Shown: one piece after another, positions 9,247 through 25,526 of the stretch
Layout of the letters: each line of letters opens with the position of its first letter
Numbering within the stretch: the stretch's first letter is position 1
Assembly (NCBI GenBank): GCA_025454795.1
Contig: JALONT010000006.1
Location: 1 to 64,000 of the forward strand
Length of the DNA: 64,000 nucleotides
Direction: 5' to 3'
DNA from: Bacteroidales bacterium
Lineage (GTDB): Bacteria; Bacteroidota; Bacteroidia; Bacteroidales; VadinHA17
Position numbers and translations under genes: made by a program
The notes under the pieces: generated by a model
What the model saw: only the letters and a program-made list of their open reading frames with translations
Databases searched by the model: none
Told to the model about the DNA's origin: nothing

Positions 9247-10431
9247 CTAGATATACTCAAAGGTGACCTTCTTCATCCATTTTTCTTCAAGCAGCCGGGC
9301 AATGCGTTTTACGACTGTTCGCCGGATCTCAAGATCGACTGGCAGGTTTGGGTCCTGGTGGGCAATATTGATCCTGGTCCCTATGATGAAGTGAATTTCA
9401 TCACTTTCCATTAACATCTTTACAATTTTATCAGCAGGACCTTTGCCAAGGCGTACACTATTATTATATGTCTTCAGAAGCTCATTCACTTTCTGCAGTG
9501 TAAGTATACCTTCTGTTACAAGGTCAATACCTTCAAGGAAGCTTTCCGGAGGCAGTTCAGGGTCTTCAAATATCAGTTCGTCAACAATCTTCCTGTTGAG
9601 TTCCCTGGCAACAATGTCAGCCGTTGTCCCTCCGCAGAGAATGACTTTTCCTTCATACGCTGTGACCTTTGCAGCAAGCTCCCTGTCCTTTTCCTTTTCA
9701 TAAGGCGGGCCCGTGCATATCATCAGCTTGCGTGGTTCCCGGAAATAGATTACTGCACAGCTTATATCATCTTTTGCCTTGTAAACATCATTTTTATGTG
9801 CCATGGTCACTATCTTTCCTGCGAGTGTGATGGCTGAAATTGATAGTTCCCCTGTGACCAGCGTTAAAGCATACGATGCAATATTATCCCTTTCCCATCC
9901 GAAGGGGAATGACTCACTGCCCATTCCGCTCTGTGATACACCGTCGGAACAGATAATAATCCTGTCCTCTTTTTCCGGCAGGAATGAGCATGTCTTTAGG
10001 ATCTTACCGGTATGTTTACCTTTATCCAGGACTACTTTTTTCCAACCGGGATCAAATTCTATGTTTCCTCTCAGGATTATGGTTGAAGGGTTGTCATATT
10101 CAAGAATATTTGCCCGGCCGCTGCTTTCGATATCAACTATCGTGAATGTTGAATAACTGATCTTCCTTTCACTGCATACTGGCAGAGTATTCATAATTAT
10201 TTCCGCAATCCGGTCAACTTCTTTGTGCTCACGGGTAAAATTAAGCGCCATAGTAGATGTAAGCGTGGCCAGGATATTTGCCTTTACACCATGCCCCATA
10301 CCGTCGGACAATACCGTAATTACCCTGTCTTCTTCCTTTATATATCTGTAAAGGAAGACATCGCCGCAGATCCTCTCTTCGTCGTGATTCCTCTGCTGAC
10401 TGTTAACTTCTATGTAAAAATCCTTTTGCAC
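9247..10431 (-). CDS. Hydrogenase-locus PP2C/SpoIIE phosphatase
   Basis: The 394-residue protein begins with a SpoIIE-type PP2C phosphatase domain. The acidic metal ligands are visible in VLSDGMGHG (D43), IICSDGVSQSG near residue 160 and KDDISCAVIYF near 220. The last ~160 residues form a separate domain with the segment VILCGGTTADIVAREL; I do not recognise it beyond its association with such phosphatases. The gene follows the sensory H-cluster gene by 5 bp and is therefore translationally linked to it. This fits the phosphatase-linked group C [FeFe]-hydrogenase sensors of the HydDB scheme as I recall it. It probably relays H2 or redox state to an unidentified phosphoprotein; no cognate kinase or anti-sigma antagonist is encoded here. 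Confidence 0.85.
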   Translation of the reverse strand: MQKDFYIEVNSQQRNHDEERICGDVFLYRYIKEEDRVITVLSDGMGHGVKANILATLTSTMALNFTREHKEVDRIAEIIMNTLPVCSERKISYSTFTIVDIESSGRANILEYDNPSTIILRGNIEFDPGWKKVVLDKGKHTGKILKTCSFLPEKEDRIIICSDGVSQSGMGSESFPFGWERDNIASYALTLVTGELSISAITLAGKIVTMAHKNDVYKAKDDISCAVIYFREPRKLMICTGPPYEKEKDRELAAKVTAYEGKVILCGGTTADIVARELNRKIVDELIFEDPELPPESFLEGIDLVTEGILTLQKVNELLKTYNNSVRLGKGPADKIVKMLMESDEIHFIIGTRINIAHQDPNLPVDLEIRRTVVKRIARLLEEKWMKKVTFEYI

Positions 10432-10436
10432 CCGGT

Positions 10437-12320
10437 TTACTGAGGATTGTTTTTCTGGCTGGTTCTTTTTTTGTAGGACTCAATTATCGAATTGAGCATC
10501 TGTTCGGTTTCAGAGGCGCCTTCGCCGAGGAGAAAACCAATCTTCTGGACCATTTCAAGATTCTTGTCAATTACTTCGCTTACCCTGTTTGTCACCTCTT
10601 CTCCCTGAACCTCAGGTGAGTACAGATCCCGTATAACTGCACCGCACATTTTATTCTTCTTAATCGGGAAGATCGAAATATTAAGCATTTTATCCTCAAA
10701 ATGAACATCTTTACTCACTACAGGTTCATCTTCCTTGATCACAAAAGTGAACATGTTATAGACACTGAACGGAATCAGAGTTTTAATATCGGCACCGGCA
10801 AGTCCCGGAATCACGTCCGATATTGCCTTTGCGTCCTCTCCTATGATATTGATGAAGCTCTGGTTTGAATGGAGTATCTTCAGGTTATTATCCACTATTA
10901 CCACTCCTGTGGGAAGCTTTTCAAGCATATTATTCATCATGTCTGATGTACTCTGCGCGACCTCCTTTTCTCTGAGTGCAAGCTCTTCTGATTCCTTCAG
11001 GGCTTTCTTGGTTTCTGCCAGTTTCCTGTTCGTTTGCCTAAGAGTTTCAATATATTCCTGTTTATTTTTCAGGTTGAAGGTGTGGCACATTTCGGGTATA
11101 GCCAGACCCTTTGCTACAGTTGAGGCAAAATCGCGGCAGGATAAATATCCGCAAGCACCACAATTTAATTCTTCTTCAGGATTAAGTTTTCCAACAATTT
11201 TCAGAACTTCATTTATAGCCTCTTCGGGAGGTTCGGGGATTCTCTGATCGTTTGCTGAGAAGGTTCTCGAAAAGTCCAGCTTCAGCCATTTATCCATATT
11301 TTTCTGCCAGAGAGTCTTATCAAGAGTATCGATTCTCTTCTCCGAATAACGGCTTACGAGCGCCCTTCTTTTGAACTTTTCCTTATGATTCTCCATCCCC
11401 GGACCCAGCAGACAGCCATGGCAGAAAAAGAGATTAAAATGGTGAAGAATTGTTTCAGTGTATTTGTCAAAATCGTTAATTGCCTCAAGGATATCCTCTT
11501 TCCCGGAGGCTGTGATGACTCTGCTTGAAACCATATCACGCTTGATGCCACCGGCTTGTATTATACCTGCAGGAACAGGATAAAGGGCTCCCCAGTAACC
11601 ATACGGAGGATCAAAATCCGACATCTTTACCAGTCTCTCCTGGATACTGAACTCTTCGAAAAGCTCTCTTAATTCAATAAATGTAAGTACCCCTTCGACC
11701 AGATTTCCTGAATCATAATTCTTTGCCTCATCCTTGGCATCAATACATGGACCAATCTGGATGATTGCAACATCTGGCCCATACAACTTCCTCACTACCA
11801 TAGCGGTAGCGATCATTGGCGATACGAGAGGTGCAAGGTTTGGTGTCAGCTCAGGATGAAACTTTTCAACGAGTTTGACAATGGCGGGACAGTTGGCGGT
11901 GATATAATATTTTCCTTCTGCTTCACTGAAGAGTTCAGCGTATTTGTTGGCAATAATATCAACTCCGAAAGAAACCTCATGAACATAATCAAATCCAAGC
12001 GAGCGGATCATTGCAACAAATTTTCTATAGTCTGTTATATCGTCAAATTCAGAAGCAATGCTTGGTTCGATAAGGGCAGCAAGCTTTTTCCCGGATGAAA
12101 ACAGAGCCCTGACCTGTTCCTTTGAGTCGCGGAACTCAATTGCCCGCGGGGAACAGGAGACATAGCACAAACCACAACCAATGCATCTGTTCGAAAGGAT
12201 AGTCGGATGCGCTTTCTGTGGTTTAACCTCGATGGCATTTACAGGGCATACCCTGACACAGGAATAAGAGTTCCTGCATTTCGTATCATCAATATTGAGA
12301 ACCGGATTATTGTCGTTCAT
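10437..12320 (-). CDS. hydS: Sensory [FeFe]-hydrogenase-like protein with PAS domain (HydS type)
   Basis: The 627-residue soluble protein has an N-terminal ferredoxin domain, an Fe-hydrogenase large-chain domain (about 75-370), a four-cysteine Fe-S domain (CGACGYLSC, near 390-415), a coiled coil and a PAS domain (about 465-570). The H-cluster ligands survive: C144 in TANCPA, C192 in GPCIDAKDE and the two cysteines of FCHGCLLGPG. The proton-transfer cysteine before C144 is N143, as expected for sensory rather than catalytic enzymes. In the first ferredoxin motif (CRNSYSCVRVCP) the second cysteine is serine (S18), while the second cluster (C46, C49, C52, C56) is intact. It is co-transcribed with the 84-residue [2Fe-2S] protein and the phosphatase, forming a likely redox/H2 sensor-phosphatase arm. 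Confidence 0.88.
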   Translation of the reverse strand: MNDNNPVLNIDDTKCRNSYSCVRVCPVNAIEVKPQKAHPTILSNRCIGCGLCYVSCSPRAIEFRDSKEQVRALFSSGKKLAALIEPSIASEFDDITDYRKFVAMIRSLGFDYVHEVSFGVDIIANKYAELFSEAEGKYYITANCPAIVKLVEKFHPELTPNLAPLVSPMIATAMVVRKLYGPDVAIIQIGPCIDAKDEAKNYDSGNLVEGVLTFIELRELFEEFSIQERLVKMSDFDPPYGYWGALYPVPAGIIQAGGIKRDMVSSRVITASGKEDILEAINDFDKYTETILHHFNLFFCHGCLLGPGMENHKEKFKRRALVSRYSEKRIDTLDKTLWQKNMDKWLKLDFSRTFSANDQRIPEPPEEAINEVLKIVGKLNPEEELNCGACGYLSCRDFASTVAKGLAIPEMCHTFNLKNKQEYIETLRQTNRKLAETKKALKESEELALREKEVAQSTSDMMNNMLEKLPTGVVIVDNNLKILHSNQSFINIIGEDAKAISDVIPGLAGADIKTLIPFSVYNMFTFVIKEDEPVVSKDVHFEDKMLNISIFPIKKNKMCGAVIRDLYSPEVQGEEVTNRVSEVIDKNLEMVQKIGFLLGEGASETEQMLNSIIESYKKRTSQKNNPQ

Positions 12321-12336
12321 ACTTATACATGCCTGT

Positions 12337-12591
12337 TTATTTAAGTCTGGCTAATTCCTGTTCAAGGATCTGCTCAATCCTGGTAAGCGTTACTCCCTCT
12401 TTTAATGTATCATTTATCATCAGGTTGGGACCATTACTGCAATGACCCATGCACCGCGCACCTTTGAAAGTTACCTTGTCGTCGAGATGATTCTTCTTAA
12501 GATATTCCCTGATAAACATCACCACCTCCTTGTTTCCCCTTGAAAAGCAGGAACTTCCAAGGCAAATATGCATTTCAGTACCCTGAGCCAT
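12337..12591 (-). CDS. Small thioredoxin-like [2Fe-2S] ferredoxin
   Basis: The 84-residue protein matches the C-terminal [2Fe-2S] domain of NuoE/HydC. The four cysteines are in CLGSSC (residues 10-15) and CMGHC (near 47-51), followed by the NGPN segment typical of the fold. It probably passes electrons to the sensory H-cluster protein encoded 17 bp downstream. It is the first gene of the leftward operon, and a minus-strand promoter box at 12624-12631 lies 33 bp before its start. Confidence 0.88.
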   Translation of the reverse strand: MAQGTEMHICLGSSCFSRGNKEVVMFIREYLKKNHLDDKVTFKGARCMGHCSNGPNLMINDTLKEGVTLTRIEQILEQELARLK

Positions 12592-12819: not shown

Positions 12820-12854
12820 TTGTTAATAAAAAAACAATGTTATTTTATTAACAA
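12820..12854. promoter_or_regulatory. Tandem Rex-like operator
   Basis: Positions 12819-12831 and 12843-12855 are perfect 13-bp inverted arms (ATTGTTAATAAAA / TTTTATTAACAAT). The same stretch reads as two 18-bp Rex-type sites, 12820-12837 and 12837-12854. Each has one perfect half (TTGTTAA or TTAACAA), one 5/7 half and the usual 4-bp spacer, and they share base 12837. They end 8 bp before the -7 box at 12862, where a bound repressor would block transcription. A rex gene lies downstream in the same operon direction (20702-21325). Confidence 0.7.
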
Positions 12855-12891: not shown

Positions 12892-13362
12892 ATGAGTACA
12901 GAGGTTGACATAATTCTTAGGAAATACAAACCAGGCAGGAGGGAGGATCTGATTCCGCTTCTTCAGGAAATACAGGATGATAACGGGTATCTTTCAGAAG
13001 ATACGATCATTAAAGTAGGCGCTTTTATCGGACTGAGTACTACAAAGATTTACGGACTTGCCACTTTTTATGATCAGTTCAGGTTTGTCCCGGCGGGAAA
13101 GATACAGATAAAGATATGCCATGGAACTACCTGTTTTCTGAACGGATCGCAGGCTATAATAAACAAGATTAAAGAAGAGACTGGCCTTATGCCGGGACAG
13201 ACCGGCAGGGACGGGATTTTCAGCTATGATATTGTCACCTGTATGGGTGGATGCAATAATGGCCCTGTGGTAAGCGTGAACGGTGAATATCATCCTCATA
13301 TTAAGCCCGAACAGCTTCCGGAGCTGATAAGAAAGCTCAGATATATCATTGAGAATGACTAA
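12892..13362 (+). CDS. hydC: HydC/NuoE-like [2Fe-2S] subunit
   Basis: The 156-residue protein is the small thioredoxin-like subunit of a HydABC-type (NuoE-like) complex. An N-terminal helical domain (residues 1-70) is followed by the [2Fe-2S] domain with intact ligands in CHGTTC and CMGGC. In bifurcating hydrogenases this subunit relays electrons next to the flavin subunit HydB. The start ATG follows the promoter box by 22 bp. Its TAA stop is immediately followed by the hydB ATG, showing translational coupling. Unlike hydB and hydA in this operon it shows no loss of key residues. Confidence 0.92.
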   Translation: MSTEVDIILRKYKPGRREDLIPLLQEIQDDNGYLSEDTIIKVGAFIGLSTTKIYGLATFYDQFRFVPAGKIQIKICHGTTCFLNGSQAIINKIKEETGLMPGQTGRDGIFSYDIVTCMGGCNNGPVVSVNGEYHPHIKPEQLPELIRKLRYIIEND

Positions 13363-15297
13363 ATGGAAGATTTAAAGAAATTTCTGACTGAGAAGGTTCT
13401 TCTGTTCGAATCCGATACGCTGCCTTCTGAAACTGAAAAGGTTCTTCAGCAGGTCAGACGCGAAAAAACGGATAAAGCAGTCATTTTTATCTCTTCGGGA
13501 ACAAGCAGCGTAATTGCCGGGGCTGAAAAAACATGGGCAGCTCTCAGGTCATATATTGATGATACTGAACCCGGGACAGAACTTGTAAAGGTAGGTTGTA
13601 CCGGACCATCCAACTATGAGCCCCTGGTTTGTATCCAGCTTCCCGGGAAAAACAAATTATATTTCAGAAACATAACTGAAGAGAAGGTTGATCCTTTATT
13701 GAATGGTGTATTTCACAGCGATATAAACAAGGATGATCTTGTAGGTCAGAGCGGATCAAGAGGATTTGAACTGTGGCCGGGGATCCCCTTTACAGAAGAA
13801 CTTGCCTTCTTTTCGCACCAGAAGAGAGTGGTCCTTAACAATTGTGGCTGCTATGATCCTGAAAGCATTGAGGAATATATTGCCCGTGGTGGGTACCGGG
13901 TTTATGTTAAAGTCATCAGGCACTATACCTACGAAGAGGTCTGCAATATCATCGAACGGAGCGGTCTGAGGGGCAGGAGCGGAGGAGGATATCTCACCGG
14001 GCTTAAATGGAAACAGGCTCTCAATGCAGGAGCCTCTTCACGGTATCTTGTATGTAATGCAAAAGAAAGCGATCCGGGTGCTTTTACAGACAGAACAATA
14101 CTTGAAAGCGATCCTCACAGGCTGATCGAGGGGATAGCTATCGGCGCATATGCTATTGGAGCATCGACAGCTATTGTGTTCTTCAGGCAAGGGTCAGAAC
14201 ATGCAAGGAAAAGGCTTCAGAAAGCAATAGACACAGCAAGGGATTATGGGCTTCTTGGACACAACATTCTATCAAGCGGGTATAATCTCGACATCATCAT
14301 AAGAAAAGAGCCGGGAGCTTTTGTCTGCGGCGAAGAAACAGCCCTGCTAAACACCCTCGAAGGTAAGAGGGGAATGCCTCAGTTGAAGCCTCCCTATCCG
14401 ACAACAGCCGGACTTTTCGGGAAACCGACAGTTATTAACAATGTCGAAACATTGATGAATGTTCCGCTTATTATGCAGAATGGACCTGAATGGTTTCGCA
14501 CAATCGGAACGGAAAACAGTCCCGGAACCAAAATTTTTGCCATAGCCGGTAAAGGACGCATGACAGGTGTTGCGGAAGTTGAAATGGGTACTACATTCAG
14601 GTCGATTCTTGCAGATATTGCAGACGGGTTAAAGGAAGGTAAAGAGTTTAAGGCTATTATGCTGGGTGGGGCATCAGGATCATTTATAACGACTGAGACC
14701 CTTGATATGACTGTCGATTATGATGTTTTGCATGAAAATGGAATAGGCATGGGATCGGGTGGATTCGTGATTATCGATGAAAACACCTGCATGGTCGACC
14801 TTGTCCGGTATTATATGGAATTTATCCGTAACGAGAGTTGCGGCAAATGCATCCCCTGCCGCGAGGGTACAGGGCGTATGCTTGAGATACTTGAGAGTGT
14901 GATCAGGAAACCTTTAAACGAAGAATCAGGGACCACCCTTGAACGTTTTAAAGGTGTCATGCAACTTGAGACCATTGCATCAGTAATGAAAGATACGTCT
15001 CTTTGTGGACTGGGACAGAATGCTCCGAATCCATTTATGAGTGCTTTGAAAAATTTCAGGGAGGAGTTCGAAGAACATATTTTTGACAGGAAATGCAGAG
15101 CCAATATCTGCCGTGGTCTCCGGTCCTTCTCAATAGATGTCGATAAATGTACAGGATGTACCGCCTGTGCTGCAAAATGCCCGGTTAATGCGATTTACGG
15201 AACACGGCTTCAACCATTTTTTATTGTTGAAGAGAAGTGCATTGGCTGCGGTATATGCTTTGATATTTGTAAGTTCAGCGCAATAAACGTTAAATAG
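13363..15297 (+). CDS. hydB: HydB/NuoF-like FMN- and NADH-binding subunit
   Basis: The 644-residue subunit has a thioredoxin-like N-terminal domain, the NuoF NADH/FMN domain (GLRGRSGGGYLTGLKW near residue 202; CNAKESDPGAF near 228), the SLBB region, the four-cysteine cluster of ESCGKCIPCREGTGR near 490 with a partner cysteine in SLCGLG, and two C-terminal [4Fe-4S] motifs (CTGCTACAAKCP, CIGCGICFDIC). It should exchange electrons between NAD(H) and the Fe-S chain. Oddly, three of the four cysteines expected in the N-terminal [2Fe-2S] site are serines (S44, S49, S83; only C79 remains), so that cluster is probably absent. The flavin-site segment reads NAKESDPG where family members I recall have NADEGDPG. 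It is coupled to hydC and followed by hydA after 5 bp. Confidence 0.92.
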   Translation: MEDLKKFLTEKVLLFESDTLPSETEKVLQQVRREKTDKAVIFISSGTSSVIAGAEKTWAALRSYIDDTEPGTELVKVGCTGPSNYEPLVCIQLPGKNKLYFRNITEEKVDPLLNGVFHSDINKDDLVGQSGSRGFELWPGIPFTEELAFFSHQKRVVLNNCGCYDPESIEEYIARGGYRVYVKVIRHYTYEEVCNIIERSGLRGRSGGGYLTGLKWKQALNAGASSRYLVCNAKESDPGAFTDRTILESDPHRLIEGIAIGAYAIGASTAIVFFRQGSEHARKRLQKAIDTARDYGLLGHNILSSGYNLDIIIRKEPGAFVCGEETALLNTLEGKRGMPQLKPPYPTTAGLFGKPTVINNVETLMNVPLIMQNGPEWFRTIGTENSPGTKIFAIAGKGRMTGVAEVEMGTTFRSILADIADGLKEGKEFKAIMLGGASGSFITTETLDMTVDYDVLHENGIGMGSGGFVIIDENTCMVDLVRYYMEFIRNESCGKCIPCREGTGRMLEILESVIRKPLNEESGTTLERFKGVMQLETIASVMKDTSLCGLGQNAPNPFMSALKNFREEFEEHIFDRKCRANICRGLRSFSIDVDKCTGCTACAAKCPVNAIYGTRLQPFFIVEEKCIGCGICFDICKFSAINVK

Positions 15298-15302
15298 CTT
15301 TT

Positions 15303-17024
15303 ATGCTTTTCACAATTCAGGTAAATAATAAGAAAATAAAGGCAGAGAAAGGAGAAACCATCCTTTCAGCCCTTAACCGCAACGGTATTATTATACCTAC
15401 TCTCTGCAGGATGAAGGATTTCACTCCTACAGGTGCCTGTAGAATGTGTGTTGTGGAAGTGGAAGGCCGTGAAAGACTGGTAACAGCCTGTTCCCAGCCT
15501 GTTGAAGAATGGATGAAAATAAAAACTCATTCACCAAGAGTCATTACAGCAAGAAAAACAAACGTTGAGCTTCTGCTTTCAAATCACCCCGATGATTGCC
15601 TGTATTGCGATAAAAACCTGAACTGCGAATTGCAGCGTTTGTCTGAAGAGTTGAATATAAGGGAAAGGCGCATACGTGCAAAGAAAATTAAACCGAGGCT
15701 TGATCAGTCAAGTCCTGCAATTGTCAGAGAATTGTCCAAATGCATTCTTTGTGGAAGATGCGTGAGAGTATGCGAAGAGGTAATAACCTCTACCTCACTT
15801 GATTTTATTAACAGAGGAAGCCTGACGCATGTCGGTCCGGCAATGGACCGCGATTTCAATTTCTCCAGTTGCATCCATTGCGGACAGTGCGTACTTGTCT
15901 GCCCGACCGGAGCACTCCATGAAAAACATAATATCAGTGAGGTCCAGGAGAACCTGAATAATCCTGATATTATCAAGGTTATCCAGTATTCACCTCTGGT
16001 GACAACAGACATTGCCGATGAGCTTGGAATAAAGTATAACAGGGAGTTTGACAGGATACTGAACTCGATTCTCAGGAAGATCGGCTTTGATAAAGTTTTT
16101 ACAACAGGAACAGGAACAGATATATGTATTACCGAGCTTGCTGCTCAGCTTAAGGAAAAATTTGATAACAAGTCAGATACACCATTATTTATTTCAGCAT
16201 GCCCTGCCTGGGTAAAATTTGCCGAGCAATTCATGCCATCTGTAATTCCGCAGCTCTCAACAGTAAAATCTCCGCAGCAGATTACAGGAGTACTCATTAA
16301 AACTCTAGTTGCCGGAGAGGCAGAAGTTAAACCTGAGAAGATATTCTCGGTTTCTGTCTCACCATGCATGGCCATGAAATTCGAAGCCAGGCGTGATGGT
16401 ATGATGCGCAAAGGTATCAGTGATGTTGATTCTGTGATGACTGTCAGAGAACTTGGGAGGCTGATCAGGTTGTATGGGATTGATGTTACTAATGTGGAAC
16501 CTGAACCTGCTGATGATCCGATGGCAGGAAGAAGCTCCTCCGCTGCACTTGCAGAAGTATCAAGCGGGATGACTGAAGCAGTAATCAGGTTGCTCTTGTA
16601 TTCGGATCTTAATAAGGATGCGGATAAGCAGCTTTTTAAGAAAATCCGGTCGGGTGGTTCATTCAGGGAAGCTGCTTTCCTGATTGGCCAGAATGAAGTT
16701 ACAACGGTAGTTGTAGACGGACTTACAGGACTGGAAAAATTAAAGTCATCCATAGCTTCCGGTAAAAAGTATGACCTTGTTGAAGTCATGACTTGCCCGG
16801 GAGGATGCATCAACGGAGCTGGTCTTTCATTCAGCACTTCAAAGAATGACATTAAAAGCCGTGCTAAAACGATCTGGCAGGCAGATGAGTCAGATGCCAT
16901 AAACCTGCCATGTAAATCGCCGGTACTTAGAAATCTGTACGACAAGCTTATTAAAGAAAATAAGGAGATATCGGACAAAAAGATATTTTACACTCATTTT
17001 GAACAAAGGAAAGTGTTACTGTAA
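15303..17024 (+). CDS. hydA: HydA-like [FeFe]-hydrogenase catalytic subunit with altered active site
   Basis: The 573-residue protein has the full modular layout: an N-terminal [2Fe-2S] domain, a His-Cys3 [4Fe-4S] motif (HPDDCLYC...C), two [4Fe-4S] clusters (CILCGRCVRVC, CIHCGQCVLVC), the H-cluster domain and the small-subunit domain. The four H-cluster cysteines are present at C300, C355, C498 and C502. However, the proton-relay cysteine is alanine (A299 in ISACPAW), the relay glutamates are L279 and Q282, the CN-ligand lysine is M358 and M353 is serine. S319 is kept. Numbering happens to match Clostridium pasteurianum CpI without gaps from 279 to 361. H2 turnover may therefore be weak or lost. 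It is the third gene of the hydCBA operon and is followed by an H-cluster sensor kinase. Confidence 0.88.
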   Translation: MLFTIQVNNKKIKAEKGETILSALNRNGIIIPTLCRMKDFTPTGACRMCVVEVEGRERLVTACSQPVEEWMKIKTHSPRVITARKTNVELLLSNHPDDCLYCDKNLNCELQRLSEELNIRERRIRAKKIKPRLDQSSPAIVRELSKCILCGRCVRVCEEVITSTSLDFINRGSLTHVGPAMDRDFNFSSCIHCGQCVLVCPTGALHEKHNISEVQENLNNPDIIKVIQYSPLVTTDIADELGIKYNREFDRILNSILRKIGFDKVFTTGTGTDICITELAAQLKEKFDNKSDTPLFISACPAWVKFAEQFMPSVIPQLSTVKSPQQITGVLIKTLVAGEAEVKPEKIFSVSVSPCMAMKFEARRDGMMRKGISDVDSVMTVRELGRLIRLYGIDVTNVEPEPADDPMAGRSSSAALAEVSSGMTEAVIRLLLYSDLNKDADKQLFKKIRSGGSFREAAFLIGQNEVTTVVVDGLTGLEKLKSSIASGKKYDLVEVMTCPGGCINGAGLSFSTSKNDIKSRAKTIWQADESDAINLPCKSPVLRNLYDKLIKENKEISDKKIFYTHFEQRKVLL

Positions 17025-17041: not shown

Positions 17042-19003
17042 ATGCTGGTCTATACAATAAAAGAGCTATGCCGAACATGTTATACTTGTGTAAGGGAGTG
17101 TCCTGCAAAAGCTATACGTATAGTCGGAGGTCAGGCTGAGGTGATAGTTGAAAGGTGTATTGCCTGTGGTAATTGCACTAAAGTATGCAGCCAGGGTGCC
17201 AAAGTTTTCCTCAATACTACTGACAGGGTGCTGAATCTCCTGGAGGAAGAGCAAAAGGTAGTAGCTATGGTAGCTCCAAGCTTCCCTGCCGAGTTTTCAG
17301 AAATATCTGATCACCGGAAGCTGATCGGAATGATAAAAGCGATTGGCTTTAAATATGTTACTGAGGTATCGTTTGGTGCAGATCTGGTTGCCGACAGGTA
17401 TAAAAAGCTGGTGAGTAACAGCAATGAATATTACATTTCTTCAGATTGTCCTTCAATAGTCAATTACATAAAACTTTATCATCCCGGGCTTGCAGATAAG
17501 CTTGCACCTATCGTATCCCCGATGGTGGCAATGAGCAGGGTTGTTCGTAAAAAATACGGAAATGATGCAAAAATTGTATTTATCGGTCCCTGTGTTGCAA
17601 AGAAAGCCGAAAGCAGCGAGATTGATGAAGCAATCACATTTACGGAATTAAGAGATTTACTTGATCAGATGGGTATCACAGCTTCGAAAAGCTCACCATC
17701 AGATTTTGATTCACCTGCCGGAGGGAGAGGAGCGATATTTCCGGTAACCAGAGGGCTGCTTCAGACAGCAAATATCAATGATGATGCCATTACCGGAAAT
17801 ATAATTGCCGCTGAGGGAAGGATAGGCTTTCAGGAGGCGCTGAAAGAATATGAGGCCGGATTGATAAAGAACCAGCATATGGAGCTTCTTTGCTGTGAGG
17901 GTTGTATTATGGGTCCGGGTTTATCTAAAAACGGGAAGCAGTACAACAGAAGAGCCCTTGTAAGTACCTATGCCAACAACAAAATGATGGAATTAGATCA
18001 GGATTCATGGAAGAGCGCATTCGACGAATTCTCAGATATTGATCTCCATGTACGTCACAGGGCTGAAGATACTAAGAGTGATCTCCCGGAAGAAAAGGAT
18101 GTTAATGATGTCCTTGTCTCAATGGGCAAGAAAACGAAGAAAGATCAGCTCGACTGCGGGGCATGCGGTTATGAGAGTTGTATTGAGCATGCGATAGCCA
18201 TTAAGAAAGGTCTGGCAGAAGTGGAAATGTGTCTGCCCTATACCATTGAAAAGCTGCATAAATCAGTTATGGATCTGGCTCTTTCGAATGAAAAGCTGAG
18301 CTCCATGAAGCAGGCTCTTAAACAATCAGAGAAACTGGCACATATGGGACAACTTTCTGCCGGTATTGCTCATGAGCTTAACAATCCACTCGGAGTGGTT
18401 ATAATGTACAGCAATATTCTCCTTGAAGAAAGTAAAACCGATGACCCGGTAAGAGAGGATCTGAAACTGATTGTAGAGCAGGCCGGAAGGTGTAAAAAAA
18501 TTGTTGCCGGTCTACTGAATTTTGCGAGGAAAAACCAGGTTAACCATCAGTTAATCAGCATTAAAGAACTTGCCATCCATAGCCTTGAAAGCGTAATTGT
18601 CCCTGGTAAAGTAAAAACAACTATTAAAGACCATACCACTGATCCGGTAGCAATGCTTGATTCAGAGCAGATGATGCAGGTTCTTACAAACCTCATTAAG
18701 AATGCTATCGATGCAATGCCTTCAGGCGGAGAAATAGACATCCTGCTTGAGGATACACTAAGTGATGTCAGTATAACTATCGGTGATACGGGAACAGGAA
18801 TTTCAGAAAAAGACAAGGCAAAGATCTTTGAACCATTTTTTACAACTAAAGGGCTTGGTTACGGAACAGGACTTGGACTTGCAACTGCCTATGGGATTGT
18901 AAAGATGCACAAGGGTTCGATAACAGTGGAATCGAATACAGATCCGGGAAAGGGTACAACAGGTACACAATTTAAAATTAATCTGCCAAGAAGGAAGGAA
19001 TAA
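17042..19003 (+). CDS. hydS: Sensory [FeFe]-hydrogenase-like histidine kinase
   Basis: The 653-residue protein joins an N-terminal two-cluster ferredoxin (CRTCYTCVRECP, CIACGNCTKVC, all eight cysteines present), an Fe-hydrogenase large-chain domain, a four-cysteine Fe-S domain (CGACGYESC) and a histidine kinase. The kinase has phosphoacceptor H444 in GIAHELNNP, an N-box (NAIDAMPSGG) and G-boxes (DTGTGI, GTGLGLATAYG). H-cluster ligands are C136 in SSDCPS, C184 in GPCVAKKAE and the cysteines of CCEGCIMGPG; the position before C136 is aspartate rather than cysteine, as in sensors. It likely converts H2 or redox state into phosphorylation of the response regulators encoded next, matching the kinase-linked group C hydrogenases. 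It lies 17 bp after hydA. Confidence 0.9.
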   Translation: MLVYTIKELCRTCYTCVRECPAKAIRIVGGQAEVIVERCIACGNCTKVCSQGAKVFLNTTDRVLNLLEEEQKVVAMVAPSFPAEFSEISDHRKLIGMIKAIGFKYVTEVSFGADLVADRYKKLVSNSNEYYISSDCPSIVNYIKLYHPGLADKLAPIVSPMVAMSRVVRKKYGNDAKIVFIGPCVAKKAESSEIDEAITFTELRDLLDQMGITASKSSPSDFDSPAGGRGAIFPVTRGLLQTANINDDAITGNIIAAEGRIGFQEALKEYEAGLIKNQHMELLCCEGCIMGPGLSKNGKQYNRRALVSTYANNKMMELDQDSWKSAFDEFSDIDLHVRHRAEDTKSDLPEEKDVNDVLVSMGKKTKKDQLDCGACGYESCIEHAIAIKKGLAEVEMCLPYTIEKLHKSVMDLALSNEKLSSMKQALKQSEKLAHMGQLSAGIAHELNNPLGVVIMYSNILLEESKTDDPVREDLKLIVEQAGRCKKIVAGLLNFARKNQVNHQLISIKELAIHSLESVIVPGKVKTTIKDHTTDPVAMLDSEQMMQVLTNLIKNAIDAMPSGGEIDILLEDTLSDVSITIGDTGTGISEKDKAKIFEPFFTTKGLGYGTGLGLATAYGIVKMHKGSITVESNTDPGKGTTGTQFKINLPRRKE

Positions 19004-19070: not shown

Positions 19071-19466
19071 ATGAAGAAAAGCGATTATACGATTTTGGTG
19101 GCTGATGATGATCCCGATTACCTTTTCCAGACGGTTTTTAATCTCGAAAAGGCTGGTTATAAAACCGTTGCAGTGGAGAGTCAGGCGGAAGCTGAGTCGG
19201 TATTTTCAAAGTTTAAACCAAGCCTTGCAATCTTTGATCTGATGATGGAAAGCGACGACAGCGGATTCATCCTTTGTTACAAGATCAAGAAAAAGTACCC
19301 CAATGTTCCGGTTATTCTTGCTACTGCAGTATCACGCGAGACCGGCATGTCATTCAGCCTCGATTCTGAAAAGGAAAAGTCGTGGATAAGGGCTGACAGA
19401 TATCTTGAGAAAGGTATCAGACCTGAGCAGCTTGATCAGGAGATAATGAAACTATTAAAACTATAA
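19071..19466 (+). CDS. Single-domain response regulator
   Basis: The 131-residue protein is a stand-alone REC domain with all key residues: the acidic triad ADDD (12-14), phosphoacceptor D56 in IFDLMMES, T near residue 87 (ATAV) and K near 117 (YLEKGI). It has no DNA-binding output. It is encoded directly after the sensor kinase and 1 bp before a REC-kinase hybrid, so it probably acts as a phosphotransfer intermediate in that pathway. Its 5' leader is entirely AAAAGAC repeat. Confidence 0.88.
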   Translation: MKKSDYTILVADDDPDYLFQTVFNLEKAGYKTVAVESQAEAESVFSKFKPSLAIFDLMMESDDSGFILCYKIKKKYPNVPVILATAVSRETGMSFSLDSEKEKSWIRADRYLEKGIRPEQLDQEIMKLLKL

Positions 19467-19467
19467 C

Positions 19468-20604
19468 ATGGCAGTTTTAAAAGTACTTGTTGTTGATGAT
19501 GAACCCGGTATAAGATCAGGTGTCGCCCGTATCCTAAGGGATTTTCATGTTACTTATCCATTTATGGATGAGGACTATACATTTGAGATAATTGAAGCTC
19601 CTACGGGAGAGGAAGGTATAATCATGATTGAACGTGATATGCCCGATGTGCTTCTCCTGGATAATAAACTGCCCGGAATACAGGGAGTTGAGGTTCTTGA
19701 GTACGTAAGGGAAAGGAAATATGATATAATGGTTGCAATGATAACCTCTTATGCCTCCCTGGATGTGGCGATAAGAGCTACACGTGACGGTGCCACGGAT
19801 TTTATTCCCAAACCCTTTACACCCCAGGAGCTTAAGTCGAGCATTGAAAACATCTCAAAACAGCTTTATCTCAAGCGAATAACTCACAAGCTTAATGCTG
19901 ATGGTAAAAAGATAAGGTATCAGTTTCTGGCAGTTCTCTCTCATGAATTAAAAGCTCCGCTGAATGCTCTTGAAGGTTACCTGAGAATGATGCAGGAAAA
20001 ACAGGCAGGAAACAGGATAGATGATTACGCAACTCATATTGACCGGTCTCTTCAGAGGATACAGGGAATGAGGAATCTTATAATGGATCTGCTCGATTTC
20101 ACCAAGATACGGCTGGAAAGGAAGGAAGATAAGATACAGAAGGTGAACCTTGCCGAAGTGGCATCAGGAGCCATTGTTACAGTGCAGCCTTATGCAATTC
20201 AGATGGAGGTCAATATTAATCTTGAGGTAAAATCAGATGCCATCATCATGGCTGATCCGGCAGATATGGAAATTATATTTAATAACCTCATTTCAAATGC
20301 AGTAAAATACAATAAATTTGGTGGTAAAGCCGACATCACGATTGACAGCACAAACACAGAAGCGATACTTATATTTTCAGATACAGGTATCGGGATCACA
20401 AAGACAGACTCGGAAAACCTCTTTACAGAATTTGTAAGGATCAAAAATGAAAAAACCAAAAATATTTCCGGAAGCGGACTTGGATTATCAATTGTCAAAA
20501 AAGTTGTCGAACTATATCATGGAACTATCAAAGTAGACAGCACACCTGATGTGGGTACAATATTTACAATCAGATTACCAAAAAAACCAATAAACATATC
20601 CTGA
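19468..20604 (+). CDS. REC-histidine kinase hybrid
   Basis: The 378-residue protein has an N-terminal receiver domain (phosphoacceptor D65 in LLLDNKLPG, lysine in PKPF) followed by a HisKA domain with H159 in LSHELKAPLN and a HATPase domain (N-box NAVKYN, DTGIGI, GSGLGLSIV). There is no membrane segment, so it senses cytoplasmic input. A receiver-first kinase normally receives phosphate from another kinase, here most likely the H-cluster kinase or its small response regulator. The final DNA-binding output is not in the window. The gene starts 1 bp after the response regulator stop. Confidence 0.87.
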   Translation: MAVLKVLVVDDEPGIRSGVARILRDFHVTYPFMDEDYTFEIIEAPTGEEGIIMIERDMPDVLLLDNKLPGIQGVEVLEYVRERKYDIMVAMITSYASLDVAIRATRDGATDFIPKPFTPQELKSSIENISKQLYLKRITHKLNADGKKIRYQFLAVLSHELKAPLNALEGYLRMMQEKQAGNRIDDYATHIDRSLQRIQGMRNLIMDLLDFTKIRLERKEDKIQKVNLAEVASGAIVTVQPYAIQMEVNINLEVKSDAIIMADPADMEIIFNNLISNAVKYNKFGGKADITIDSTNTEAILIFSDTGIGITKTDSENLFTEFVRIKNEKTKNISGSGLGLSIVKKVVELYHGTIKVDSTPDVGTIFTIRLPKKPINIS

Positions 20605-20701: not shown

Positions 20702-21325
20702 ATGAAACTACCGGGTAAAACAGTTGAAAGGCTAAGCGAATACAGAAGAACACTTCTGGGATGTCTGGATGAAAAGAAAAATTTCATCTTTTCTCACGAT
20801 CTGGCAGCGCGGCTGCACATTACTGCCGTACAGGTCAGACGCGACCTCATGCTTATAGGTTATTCATCTGTCCAGCGTAAAGGTTATGATGTGAGAGAGC
20901 TCATCGACACTATTGGTAACATTATCGATTCGGAACAGAGTCTGAATGTCGCCATTCTGGGTATCGGCAACCTCGGAAGAGCAGTTGCCGGTTATTTCAA
21001 AGGAAAAAGATCAAAACTTAATCTCGTGGCATCATTCGATAATGATCCGCAGAAGGTAAACAAGGTGATTTCGGGTGTGAAGTGCTATCCTCACAATGAG
21101 ATGGAAAAGATAATTAAGGAGCTCGACATTAAGATAGCCATCATAACCGTTCCCCCTGATTTTGCCGGGGAGATTGCTGAAGAGGTTGTACGTTTCGGAA
21201 TAAAAGGCATTCTCAATTTTACAACCATCCCACTAAATGTTCCTTCGTGGGTATTTCTTGAGGAATATGACATGATAACATCGATCGAGAAAGTTGCATT
21301 CTTCGTGAAGGAGAACCGGATATAA
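20702..21325 (+). CDS. rex: Redox-sensing transcriptional repressor Rex
   Basis: The 207-residue protein has the Rex layout: an N-terminal winged helix (residues 1-80, with RLSEYRR and VQVRRDLMLIGY) and a Rossmann NAD(H)-binding domain (GIGNLGRAVAGYF near 85), ending in the domain-swapped C-terminal helix. Rex binds TTGTTAA-type palindromes when NADH is low and releases DNA when the NADH/NAD+ ratio rises. Its location behind the hydrogenase operon and the Rex-like sites at 12820-12854 suggest it controls both hydrogenase operons. The length is close to typical Rex proteins (about 210). Confidence 0.95.
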   Translation: MKLPGKTVERLSEYRRTLLGCLDEKKNFIFSHDLAARLHITAVQVRRDLMLIGYSSVQRKGYDVRELIDTIGNIIDSEQSLNVAILGIGNLGRAVAGYFKGKRSKLNLVASFDNDPQKVNKVISGVKCYPHNEMEKIIKELDIKIAIITVPPDFAGEIAEEVVRFGIKGILNFTTIPLNVPSWVFLEEYDMITSIEKVAFFVKENRI

Positions 21326-22322: not shown

Positions 22323-23747
22323 ATGCAGTTCTCACCTGAAAAGCTGAAAATTCCGGATCAGAGAATGAAACCATTCATTGATCCGGAAGAGATATGGAGT
22401 TTCATCAATAATATAAAACCTGACACTAGGAGAGTCAGGGATGTTATTGCCAAATCGCTCGAAAAGCAGAGGCTGACGATGGAGGAGACTGCGGTTTTAA
22501 TCAATTCCACAGGAACCGGACTTTTTGATGAAATCAGGCAGGGTGCCAGGGAACTAAAAGAAAAAGTCTATGGTAACAGGATAGTGCTGTTTGCGCCACT
22601 CTATGTCGGGAACAGATGTACTAACAACTGTCAGTATTGCGGTTTCAGAGTTTCAAACAAGGACGCTATCCGTAAAACCCTTACCGATGGGGAACTCATT
22701 AAAGAGGTCGAAGCACTTGAGGATAACGGACAAAAGAGACTGATACTCGTTTATGGAGAACACCCTGATTATTCTCCTGAATACATTGCAAATACAGTTA
22801 AAACTGTTTATAGTGTTAAAAAAGGCCATGGCGAAATCAGAAGGGTGAACATAAATGCTGCCCCACTTGATATAGAAGGATTCAGAACTGTTGGAGAATC
22901 GGGTATTGGTACCTACCAGATCTTTCAGGAAACCTATCACCCTGAGGCATATAAAACTTACCATCTTGGAGGGAAGAAAAGAGATTATGAATACCGGTTG
23001 ACTGCACTCGACAGGGCACAGGAGGCAGGTATTGACGATGTAGGCATAGGAGCACTTTTTGGACTTTATGACTGGAGGTTTGAGGTTCTGGGTCTGCTCA
23101 GGCATACCAATCACCTGGAAGCCTGTTATAATGTAGGGCCTCATACAATTTCATTCCCCCGCATTAAAGATGCGCTGAGCCTCAATATTGACGGCAGGTA
23201 TCAGACAAGCGATGAAGATTTTAAAAAGCTTGTTGCAGTATTGAGACTCGCAGTTCCTTATACCGGACTTATTTTAACCGCACGGGAATCTCCTTCAGTC
23301 CGAAAGGAAGTAATGCAATATGGTGTCTCACAGATAGATGGCGGGACAAAACTCGAGCTTGGTTCATATTCCGACTCTCAAAACGAAGTTCAAAATCTTA
23401 ACCGCGAACAGTTCAAAATTAACGATCCCCGATCACTTTCAGAAGTAATAGATGAACTGCTGACAAACGATTATATTCCTTCATTCTGTACTTCTTGCTA
23501 CAGGATGGGCAGAACAGGAGAGCATTTCATGGAATTCTCTGTCCCTGGATTTATAAAGCGTTTCTGTACTCCCAATGCCCTTCTTACGCTGTCGGAGTAT
23601 ATATGTGATTATGCAACTGAAGATGTAGCAAAAAAGGGATGGAGGGCGATTGAAAAAAATCTGCAAAAACTCGAACCTGGAGTTTTAGAGAGTACCATTG
23701 AGAAAATTGAGCGTATTAAGAAGGGGGAGAGGGATCTGTATTTTTAA
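22323..23747 (+). CDS. hydG: [FeFe]-hydrogenase maturase HydG (radical SAM tyrosine lyase)
   Basis: The 474-residue enzyme cleaves tyrosine to supply the CO and CN- ligands and iron of the H-cluster. The radical-SAM cluster motif CTNNCQYCGFR is near residue 99. The C-terminal auxiliary cluster cysteines are in FCTSCYRMG and, 22 residues later, RFCTPNAL. Length and motifs match HydG throughout. Its presence implies that H-clusters are really assembled, whether in HydA, the sensory proteins or another hydrogenase. It has its own promoter box and is followed by a TM1266-like gene. Confidence 0.95.
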   Translation: MQFSPEKLKIPDQRMKPFIDPEEIWSFINNIKPDTRRVRDVIAKSLEKQRLTMEETAVLINSTGTGLFDEIRQGARELKEKVYGNRIVLFAPLYVGNRCTNNCQYCGFRVSNKDAIRKTLTDGELIKEVEALEDNGQKRLILVYGEHPDYSPEYIANTVKTVYSVKKGHGEIRRVNINAAPLDIEGFRTVGESGIGTYQIFQETYHPEAYKTYHLGGKKRDYEYRLTALDRAQEAGIDDVGIGALFGLYDWRFEVLGLLRHTNHLEACYNVGPHTISFPRIKDALSLNIDGRYQTSDEDFKKLVAVLRLAVPYTGLILTARESPSVRKEVMQYGVSQIDGGTKLELGSYSDSQNEVQNLNREQFKINDPRSLSEVIDELLTNDYIPSFCTSCYRMGRTGEHFMEFSVPGFIKRFCTPNALLTLSEYICDYATEDVAKKGWRAIEKNLQKLEPGVLESTIEKIERIKKGERDLYF

Positions 23748-23835: not shown

Positions 23836-23857
23836 AATATTGACAAACTCATCTCTT

Positions 23858-24382
23858 ATGATAAAAGTACTTGGAATTAAAATTATTGACCGCATAAAAG
23901 AAGCTGGTCTGACACAGGAAGTTTTATCCAGGCATGCATCTGTAATCACTACCCGTCTTGGATTCCATGAAGTCACTGATAATGTCTGCAGCCGTGAGGC
24001 ATATATTATTCTTCACCTGAAAGATGATCATGCTGAATCAGAGAGACTTATAAAGAACCTCGAACCGCTTGGAGGAATTATGATAAGGGAGGTGACCTTC
24101 TCCGATAATGGAAATAAGTCCGGGGATAAACAATTCGACGGGACTACCGAAATCATAGGAATCCTGGTCAAAAGAGATCGTGAAGTAATCCTGTCTGTTC
24201 AGAAGCTGCTTACCGCTTATGGATGTAATATAAGAACCCGTCTTGGGGTTAATGAAATATTTTTTGGTGAACCGGCAGGATTGATCATACTTGAATTAAC
24301 TGGTGATCATAAACAGCGTGATTTACTGGAGAAAGACCTGAAAGCACTGAAGCAGGTCCAAATCAGGAAAATGGTATTTTAA
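23858..24382 (+). CDS. Tandem TM1266-type 'iron-only hydrogenase system regulator'
   Basis: The 174-residue protein contains two copies of the small ACT-like TM1266 fold. The N-terminal copy carries ITTRLGFHEV and the C-terminal copy IRTRLGVNEI at the equivalent position, and each copy is about 80 residues, the normal length of the whole family member. TM1266-like proteins are encoded next to [FeFe]-hydrogenase maturases, and a regulatory role is assumed from context only. The ATG at 23858 is chosen over the in-frame TTG at 23840. It lies between hydG and the convergent hydE. Confidence 0.8.
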   Translation: MIKVLGIKIIDRIKEAGLTQEVLSRHASVITTRLGFHEVTDNVCSREAYIILHLKDDHAESERLIKNLEPLGGIMIREVTFSDNGNKSGDKQFDGTTEIIGILVKRDREVILSVQKLLTAYGCNIRTRLGVNEIFFGEPAGLIILELTGDHKQRDLLEKDLKALKQVQIRKMVF

Positions 24383-24434: not shown

Positions 24435-25526
24435 TTACGCCTCTGCGCCTCTGCGCCGTTTTTCATAATGCTTCGAATCACCCCATTCCCCGTAAATCAC
24501 TTCAGCATCGGCAAGAGATACCCTCGCTTCGAGACAGCTCTGGCAATCCTCGGCTGAGTCATCAGTGCATGGCTTATTATCATACAGTTTATAACTGTCG
24601 CGGTATTTCCCGGGAGTAATATTCGGCATCAGGATATTTGCTCCTATCTTAACGGCCTTTTCCCTCCCTATCGGATCAATAGCCTGAAGCGCAGTGGCAG
24701 CTACAATATTTATATCCTTCATCATAATCCTCAGGATCGCGATCATTTTTAGAGTCAGATCGAATCTCTCTTTAAGTGGTAAAAGCGTCCCTGCATATTT
24801 AATCAAAGGTGTATCGGCATGTTCTATATATGGACCCATGCCGCACATATCGATATTAAAATCTCTCATAAAAATGAGATCCCCGGCAAGATCGTTAAAA
24901 GTCTGGAATGGCAAACCGATCATCACTCCTGTACCTGTCTGATAACCAATTTCCTGAAGACTTCTCAGGCAATCCAGTCTTCTTTGAAAATCATGCTTTT
25001 TATTGTCAGGATGGATCTTGCTGTAAAGATCCCTGTTGGTTGATTCAACTCTCAGAAGATACCTGTGTGCTCCGGCTTCAAACCATTTCCTGTAAACTTC
25101 AGGTTCCTGTTCACCTACGGATAAAGTAACTCCGAGTTCACCATTAGATAATTCCTTTATCTTATGAAGCAGGTTATCGATCCTGCCGGTAACAGCACTG
25201 CTCTCGAGTTCACCTGACTGAAGGGCAATTGATCCATACCGGTTTTCATAAGCGAATCGTGCCGCTGTAATAATCTCATTGTCAGACAGATTATATCGTT
25301 TCAGATTCTTATTGCCTTTACGGATCCCGCAATAGAAACAATCTTTTCCACAAACATTCGAAAATTCTATCAGCCCCCTGAACCATACCTTATTTCCGAT
25401 ATACTTTTCTTTTATATCTGATGATTTTTTAAAAAGTAGAGTACGGTCCTCACCATTCGATGAAAGCAGTAGGACAATATCTTCTTTTGAGAACGATTCC
25501 TTATTTAGTATCTCTTCTACTGACAT
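24435..25526 (-). CDS. hydE: [FeFe]-hydrogenase maturase HydE (radical SAM)
   Basis: The 363-residue enzyme takes part in building the two-iron subsite of the H-cluster. The radical-SAM motif CGKDCFYCGIR is near residue 59. The optional second cluster cysteines seen in some HydE proteins are present near the C-terminus (C, then DCQSC). It is transcribed convergently to the hydG/TM1266-like genes. The last residues (KRRRGAEA) are read from the intergenic CCTCTGCGCC repeat at 24440-24457, so the repeat has run into the 3' end of the gene. Confidence 0.94.
   Translation of the reverse strand: MSVEEILNKESFSKEDIVLLLSSNGEDRTLLFKKSSDIKEKYIGNKVWFRGLIEFSNVCGKDCFYCGIRKGNKNLKRYNLSDNEIITAARFAYENRYGSIALQSGELESSAVTGRIDNLLHKIKELSNGELGVTLSVGEQEPEVYRKWFEAGAHRYLLRVESTNRDLYSKIHPDNKKHDFQRRLDCLRSLQEIGYQTGTGVMIGLPFQTFNDLAGDLIFMRDFNIDMCGMGPYIEHADTPLIKYAGTLLPLKERFDLTLKMIAILRIMMKDINIVAATALQAIDPIGREKAVKIGANILMPNITPGKYRDSYKLYDNKPCTDDSAEDCQSCLEARVSLADAEVIYGEWGDSKHYEKRRRGAEA
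24440..24457. repeat. CCTCTGCGC repeat overlapping the hydE 3' end
   Basis: CCTCTGCGC is repeated twice in tandem and encodes the atypical HydE tail. Similar units occur at 25689-25737 and, as CTCTGTGT variants, at the other CACAGAG-family sites. Confidence 0.6.

Follow-up and report, generated by a model that had tools for sequence, protein, structure and literature searches.

C299 and E279 are considered essential in fast [FeFe]-hydrogenases. The window, i.e. the entire 64,000-nucleotide stretch of Bacteroidales DNA analysed here, encodes a HydA-like H-cluster subunit of 573 aa (15303..17024, + strand) in which both residues are replaced, raising the question of whether the corresponding HydABC complex is still a working hydrogenase or serves another role. 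A sequence-only reading of this DNA had proposed that HydA retains its H-cluster ligands, has lost its proton path and may be a slow enzyme, a sensor or an electron acceptor with another substrate. The genome from which the window derives is 3.29 Mb in size and 99% complete, and those of its close relatives that carry a name are MAGs of uncultured Bacteroidales, several with the label 'fen'.

The active site of HydA

HydA was aligned to CpI chains using phmmer. The alignment is free of gaps from position 279 to 361 and returned the residues listed in the sequence-only reading, namely L279, Q282, A299 (FISACPAW), C300, S319, S353, C355 and M358, while the four cysteine ligands of the [4Fe-4S]H cluster (C300, C355, C498 and C502) were likewise present. 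The designations M496, C498 and C502 follow the protein's own numbering and correspond to M497, C499 and C503 in the CpI numbering used below. The codons of the replaced residues are located on the + strand at 16137..16139 (L279, CpI E279), 16146..16148 (Q282, CpI E282), 16197..16199 (A299, CpI C299), 16359..16361 (S353, CpI M353) and 16374..16376 (M358, CpI K358). Seven further changes had been missed, i.e. A230S, S232L, R234T, R286K, F417A, G418E and V423M, of which E418 (16554..16556, + strand; CpI G418) represents a candidate new acid beside the H-cluster.

Group A enzymes are characterized by a TSC[CS]P motif and a proton path formed by C299, E279, E282, S319 and R286; HydA lacks this motif and retains only S319 of the path, with K in place of R286. 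HydA also scored below the NCBIfam cut-offs for group A (TIGR02512, 333.6 vs 405.95) and A6 (NF040763, 568.7 vs 765), both of which were passed by the canonical relatives L216 and L223. The AlphaFold model of HydA (mean pLDDT 81, around 90 in the H-domain), which carries no cofactor geometry, matches the fold of HydABC HydA and CpI. By sequence and fold, the solved proteins closest to it are CpI and HydA from the HydABC complexes of T. kivui, A. woodii and T. maritima. In CpI, the substitutions C299A/S or E279A/Q leave <1% activity, and E282Q leaves 8% (PMC6226526). Such published variants of other enzymes predict a very low activity of HydA.

Distribution and conservation of the altered active site

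Searches by order, phylum and named genome yielded 210 HydAs of this kind. A canonical active site (E279, E282, C299, M353, K358 and F417) was found in 107 of these, all outside one Bacteroidales clade and including representatives from MAGs labelled Planctomycetota, Acidobacteriota, Elusimicrobia, Melainabacteria, Ignavibacteriae and Deltaproteobacteria. The remaining Bacteroidales-type HydAs comprise 32 sequences that retain C299 with E279 or other residues lost, and 71 without C299. Within this altered clade, E279 is almost always absent, and where C299 is lost, position 299 is occupied by A, S, D, N, H, R, L, F or Y. C355, C499 and C503 are invariant across the 210 sequences; position 300 is Cys throughout the altered clade, whereas 20 canonical sequences have Ser there (TSCSP, a form that also occurs in other bifurcating enzymes).

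A tree of 101 loci, based on HydB and the N-domain of HydA with the active-site columns left out (quick LG+G4), placed all altered rows in a single group of 69 (SH-aLRT 100). Parsimony indicated 5 changes at position 279, ~10 at 299, 9 at 353 and 12 at 358, these counts being approximate because some branches of this quick tree are weak and long. Judged from this tree, the active-site change is derived, and the repeated loss of proton-carrying residues, under strong selection and beside signalling genes, suggests a transition from a working hydrogenase to a slow or sensing version.

A299, M358, S/T353 and an acid at position 418 were observed in 36/36 sequences of the subgroup to which the window belongs, down to 59% identity. 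Since all 36 members, derived from many separate assemblies, carry A299 and M358, the HydA changes are neither a sequencing error nor a chance one-off. For HydA, codon models gave an omega of 0.024 in the N-domain and of 0.070 in the H-domain; the values for HydB, HydS2 and Rex were 0.043, 0.044 and 0.040, respectively. These values are only a rough guide, because synonymous substitutions approach saturation over such divergence. HydA is under strong purifying selection.

Gene neighbourhood of the HydABC locus

HydA is encoded in a tight operon with the order hydC, hydB, hydA, HydS2, response regulator, regulator-kinase fusion, rex, ribF and hydG; hydE is located nearby and hydF on contig C80, in agreement with the initial description of the operon as complete. 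On the + strand, hydA is preceded by hydC (12892..13362; NuoE-like, thioredoxin-fold [2Fe-2S]) and hydB (13363..15297; NuoF-like, FMN). It is followed by HydS2 (17042..19003), in which an [FeFe]-hydrogenase-like domain is fused to HisKA/HATPase, and by a response regulator (19071..19466) and a response regulator fused to a histidine kinase domain (19468..20604), both assigned from their translations and conserved in gene order among relatives. The redox (NADH/NAD+) repressor Rex (20702..21325) and the maturase HydG (22323..23747) scored above the NF003995 (NCBIfam) and TIGR03955 cut-offs, respectively, as did HydE (24435..25526, - strand) for TIGR03956. The interval 23840-24382 encodes a TM1266-like putative hydrogenase-system regulator of approximately twice the length of the Pfam model.

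Opposite in direction from the hydC promoter, a divergent arm on the - strand encodes a thioredoxin-like [2Fe-2S] ferredoxin (12337..12591), a second [FeFe]-hydrogenase-like protein designated HydS1 (10437..12320) and a SpoIIE/PP2C-type phosphatase (9247..10431). HydS1 carries N at 299 and A at 358, and its third motif, FFCHGC, puts C at 500, not 499, so that the H-cluster site of HydS1 looks changed as well. Loci outside the clade usually consist of hydCBA, HydS2, the response regulator and the regulator-kinase fusion; the divergent arm and a downstream rex in the operon are mostly clade features, and the clade nearly coincides with the presence of the arm. Where a locus included sufficient upstream sequence, loss of E279 was found in 50/55 cases with the arm vs 5/25 without it, a link that is weakly replicated because the tree shows only ~4 changes of the arm. 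Independent-pairs tests of arm against residue loss, and of acid against C299 loss, gave no significance, there being too few independent changes.

At 12820..12854 (+ strand), 38-72 bases upstream of hydC, a pair of neighbouring palindromes of the Rex-like type TTGTTAA-N4-TTAACAA is present at a distance of 17 bp. This motif, which we take to be a Rex operator type, was found at hydC in 37/55 loci with the arm, against a total of ~0.9 expected from shuffled sequences, and frequently in tandem with a 17-bp spacing; 8/35 other loci also have it. The motif suggests NADH/NAD+ control of the operon. Searches with TTGTGAA half-sites gave no excess over chance, whereas TTGTTAA half-sites exceeded it.

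At least one other canonical-scoring HydA was found in 66/68 clade genomes, while the HydA of this locus is the sole HydA in 13/30 basal genomes (Fisher p 1.5e-6, uncorrected for kinship). Searching the DNA for the TSC[CS]P motif proved too unspecific for counting canonical HydAs. The window genome itself has two ordinary HydAs, one of which (L001, G000:C52) contains TSCSPGW, i.e. Ser for ligand C300, a form also present in other bifurcating HydABC. In the window and, with few exceptions, in the other lineages, whether canonical or altered, HydS2 possesses D299 and K358, while the HydS1 proteins of the subgroup carry N at 299 and mostly A at 358. The H2-reactive site thus seems to have been preserved in HydS2, whereas HydA abandoned or altered it.

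HydB and comparison with known hydrogenases

The partner subunits correspond to those of group A, HydB and HydC providing an NADH/FMN site and the B1-B4 ligands. Mapping with published B2 ligand positions (PMC9304861) showed that HydB retains the ligands of B1-B4, with both Cys and His in place at the unusual B2 cluster. The B5-type N-terminal [2Fe-2S] site is degraded: its thioredoxin-like domain has a single usual Cys left in the window. The initial claim that all accessory Fe-S domains are intact thus holds for HydA, whose N-domain Cys/His ligands are invariant, but not for this part of HydB. Based on this ligand pattern, NADH oxidation by HydB is plausible, and bifurcation less certain. 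The Cys of the GGPSGGC motif, conserved in bifurcating HydB, is F441 in the window; it is present in 99/103 canonical relatives and in 0/34 subgroup sequences, and the same mapping ruled it out as a B2 ligand.

Trimeric group A HydABC complexes (T. kivui 8a6t, A. woodii 7q4v and T. maritima 7p5h) share with the window complex the three subunits, the domain order, FMN and the accessory clusters. The window complex differs from them in the replacement of the C299/E279/E282 relay and of K358, M353 and F417, in the degraded N-terminal [2Fe-2S] of HydB and in its sub-threshold group A and A6 scores. Similar to HydA, the sensory group C/D enzymes TmHydS and TamHydS combine Ala at 299 with a small residue at 353, and their proton-path residues are not conserved (PMC10055695, PMC10407848). 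The window HydA is unlike these proteins in having a full N-terminal NuoG-like domain and HydBC partners, and in lacking a PAS or kinase domain of its own as well as K358, a residue that hydrogen-bonds [2Fe] and is of the kind reported to be retained in sensory types (M358 in the window). In sequence comparisons, HydA groups with its best matches, the HydA proteins of HydABC complexes and of sister operons, and not with HydS.

HydABC genes beside a histidine-kinase [FeFe]-like protein are also found in BfuABC with its T subunit (group C3 with histidine kinase) of Hydrogenedentota sub-type V, for which the P1 motif is reported as xTSCxP, vs ISACP in the window HydA (PMC11406978). The association of HydABC with a group C3 histidine-kinase protein is therefore already known; no description of the altered clade was found in the open-access literature searched.

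Proposed role of the altered complex

The reading that we tentatively favour, at a little short of an even chance, is that this HydABC has been repurposed as a slow or sensory NADH-linked complex. According to this model, NADH would be oxidized at the FMN in HydB, and electrons would then pass through the intact Fe-S chain of HydA to the old catalytic centre, where H2 turnover would be very slow or absent because the C299-E279-E282 relay and the contacts provided by K358, M353 and F417 are gone. The complex would report the NADH/ferredoxin/H2 poise to the HydS2 histidine kinase, its response regulators and the HydS1-SpoIIE arm, and would help to adjust how strongly the cell expresses its ordinary hydrogenases. 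This reading is favoured by the signalling neighbours, the spare ordinary hydrogenases, the strong purifying selection, the published variants and the sensory pattern at 299/353, in which C299A accompanies small M353 replacements (PMC10055695). Further points in its favour are the derived and conserved nature of the changes, the co-occurrence of E279 loss with the arm, the D299 and K358 of HydS2, and rex together with the paired Rex-like sites at hydC. A sensing role of the complex and its physical contact with HydS2 are what we infer.

Several observations temper the sensory part of this reading. HydS2 and the response regulators already occur beside canonical relatives, so that context alone is no proof of a sensory role. 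Residues that contact [2Fe] are reported to be conserved in known sensory enzymes, and one of these, K358, is lost in HydA. Furthermore, the acid gains at 418/423 suggest retained chemistry. A more far-reaching version, which is rather unlikely, is that in Bacteroidales the [FeFe] site of a bifurcating-type hydrogenase complex was shut down or reconstructed more than once and that the complex became the input module for signalling, HydABC then serving as the cell's own sensor of NADH, ferredoxin and H2. The third role proposed at first, that of an electron acceptor with another substrate, found no positive support in the comparative evidence.

Acidic residues at positions 418 and 423

D or E occupies position 418 in 36/36 subgroup sequences and in 0/107 canonical HydAs; D418 is also present in L127, which represents a separate A299 lineage, and E423 occurs in nine other C299-less sequences. 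Overall, an acid at 418 or 423 was found in 46/71 sequences without C299 vs 0/139 with C299. An alternative proton path has been proposed for the group D enzyme TamHydS, starting from E252 where group A has valine (PMC10407848), and V423 is a candidate match of this residue. In the main rival reading, HydA would be a slow but genuine NADH-linked hydrogenase in which the acid at 418 (or 423, or D299 elsewhere) replaces C299 in the manner proposed for E252. The 30-80% activity kept by CpI C299D (PMC6226526) and the presence of HydE, HydF and HydG in the window genome are in line with such a relocated relay. We nevertheless regard it as rather unlikely, as the acid trait reflects only about 5 changes on the tree, V423 is a candidate counterpart of E252 at most, contacts of [2Fe] itself differ owing to M358 and A417, and bulk work can fall to the ordinary HydAs present.

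These acids also bear on the proposal of a lost proton path resulting in a slow enzyme or sensor. The loss is real, derived and conserved, and the comparative evidence fits it; yet the fixed acid gained at 418 in the subgroup, together with the natural Ala-299 enzymes TmHydS and TamHydS, which still catalyse slow H2 turnover along other routes (PMC10055695, PMC10407848), implies that 'lost' may mean 'rewired'.

Maturases and the [2Fe] site

In a further scenario, which we consider improbable, [2Fe] is no longer bound and [4Fe-4S]H ends the electron chain, as in Nar1-type relatives, and connects NADH/ferredoxin with HydS2. Such a protein would fit the observation that C355, C499 and C503, and within the clade C300, are never lost while most [2Fe]-contacting residues vary, as well as the gene content of G074, a 95%-complete MAG with only degenerate [FeFe] HydA/HydS proteins and no HydE, HydF or HydG. 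G074 is, however, a single MAG, the window genome possesses all three maturases, and S319, Q325 and M497 are retained in the subgroup. HydE, HydF and HydG were all missing in six checked genomes, five of which retain canonical HydA, so that assembly gaps are possible; maturase absence was consequently rejected as proof of a [2Fe]-less protein, only G074 fitting this expectation. In G024, G014, G016, G067 and G257, the three maturases were not found despite canonical HydA genes, and in the first three of these, other genes fill the HydG/HydE position beside the operon on long contigs. The HydA-like ORF of G074 (L151) is intact, with all four cysteines and Y299.

Decay of a redundant hydrogenase under relaxed selection, with no new function, is very improbable. 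Among C299-less sequences that do not belong to the subgroup, pocket positions are as variable as other parts of the domain, but A299 and M358 are invariant within the subgroup, omega is 0.07 or lower, HydA has all its Fe-S ligands and the HydA copies scanned showed no internal stop.

Implications

The clade, its canonical sisters and the graded replacements between them constitute a natural mutagenesis set, which allows one to ask which residues matter, in which order they can be lost and whether a displaced acid can restore proton transfer. Should the complex prove to be a sensor, this HydABC would have turned from an enzyme into a signal input, and genome surveys that score it as an H2 producer would be wrong.
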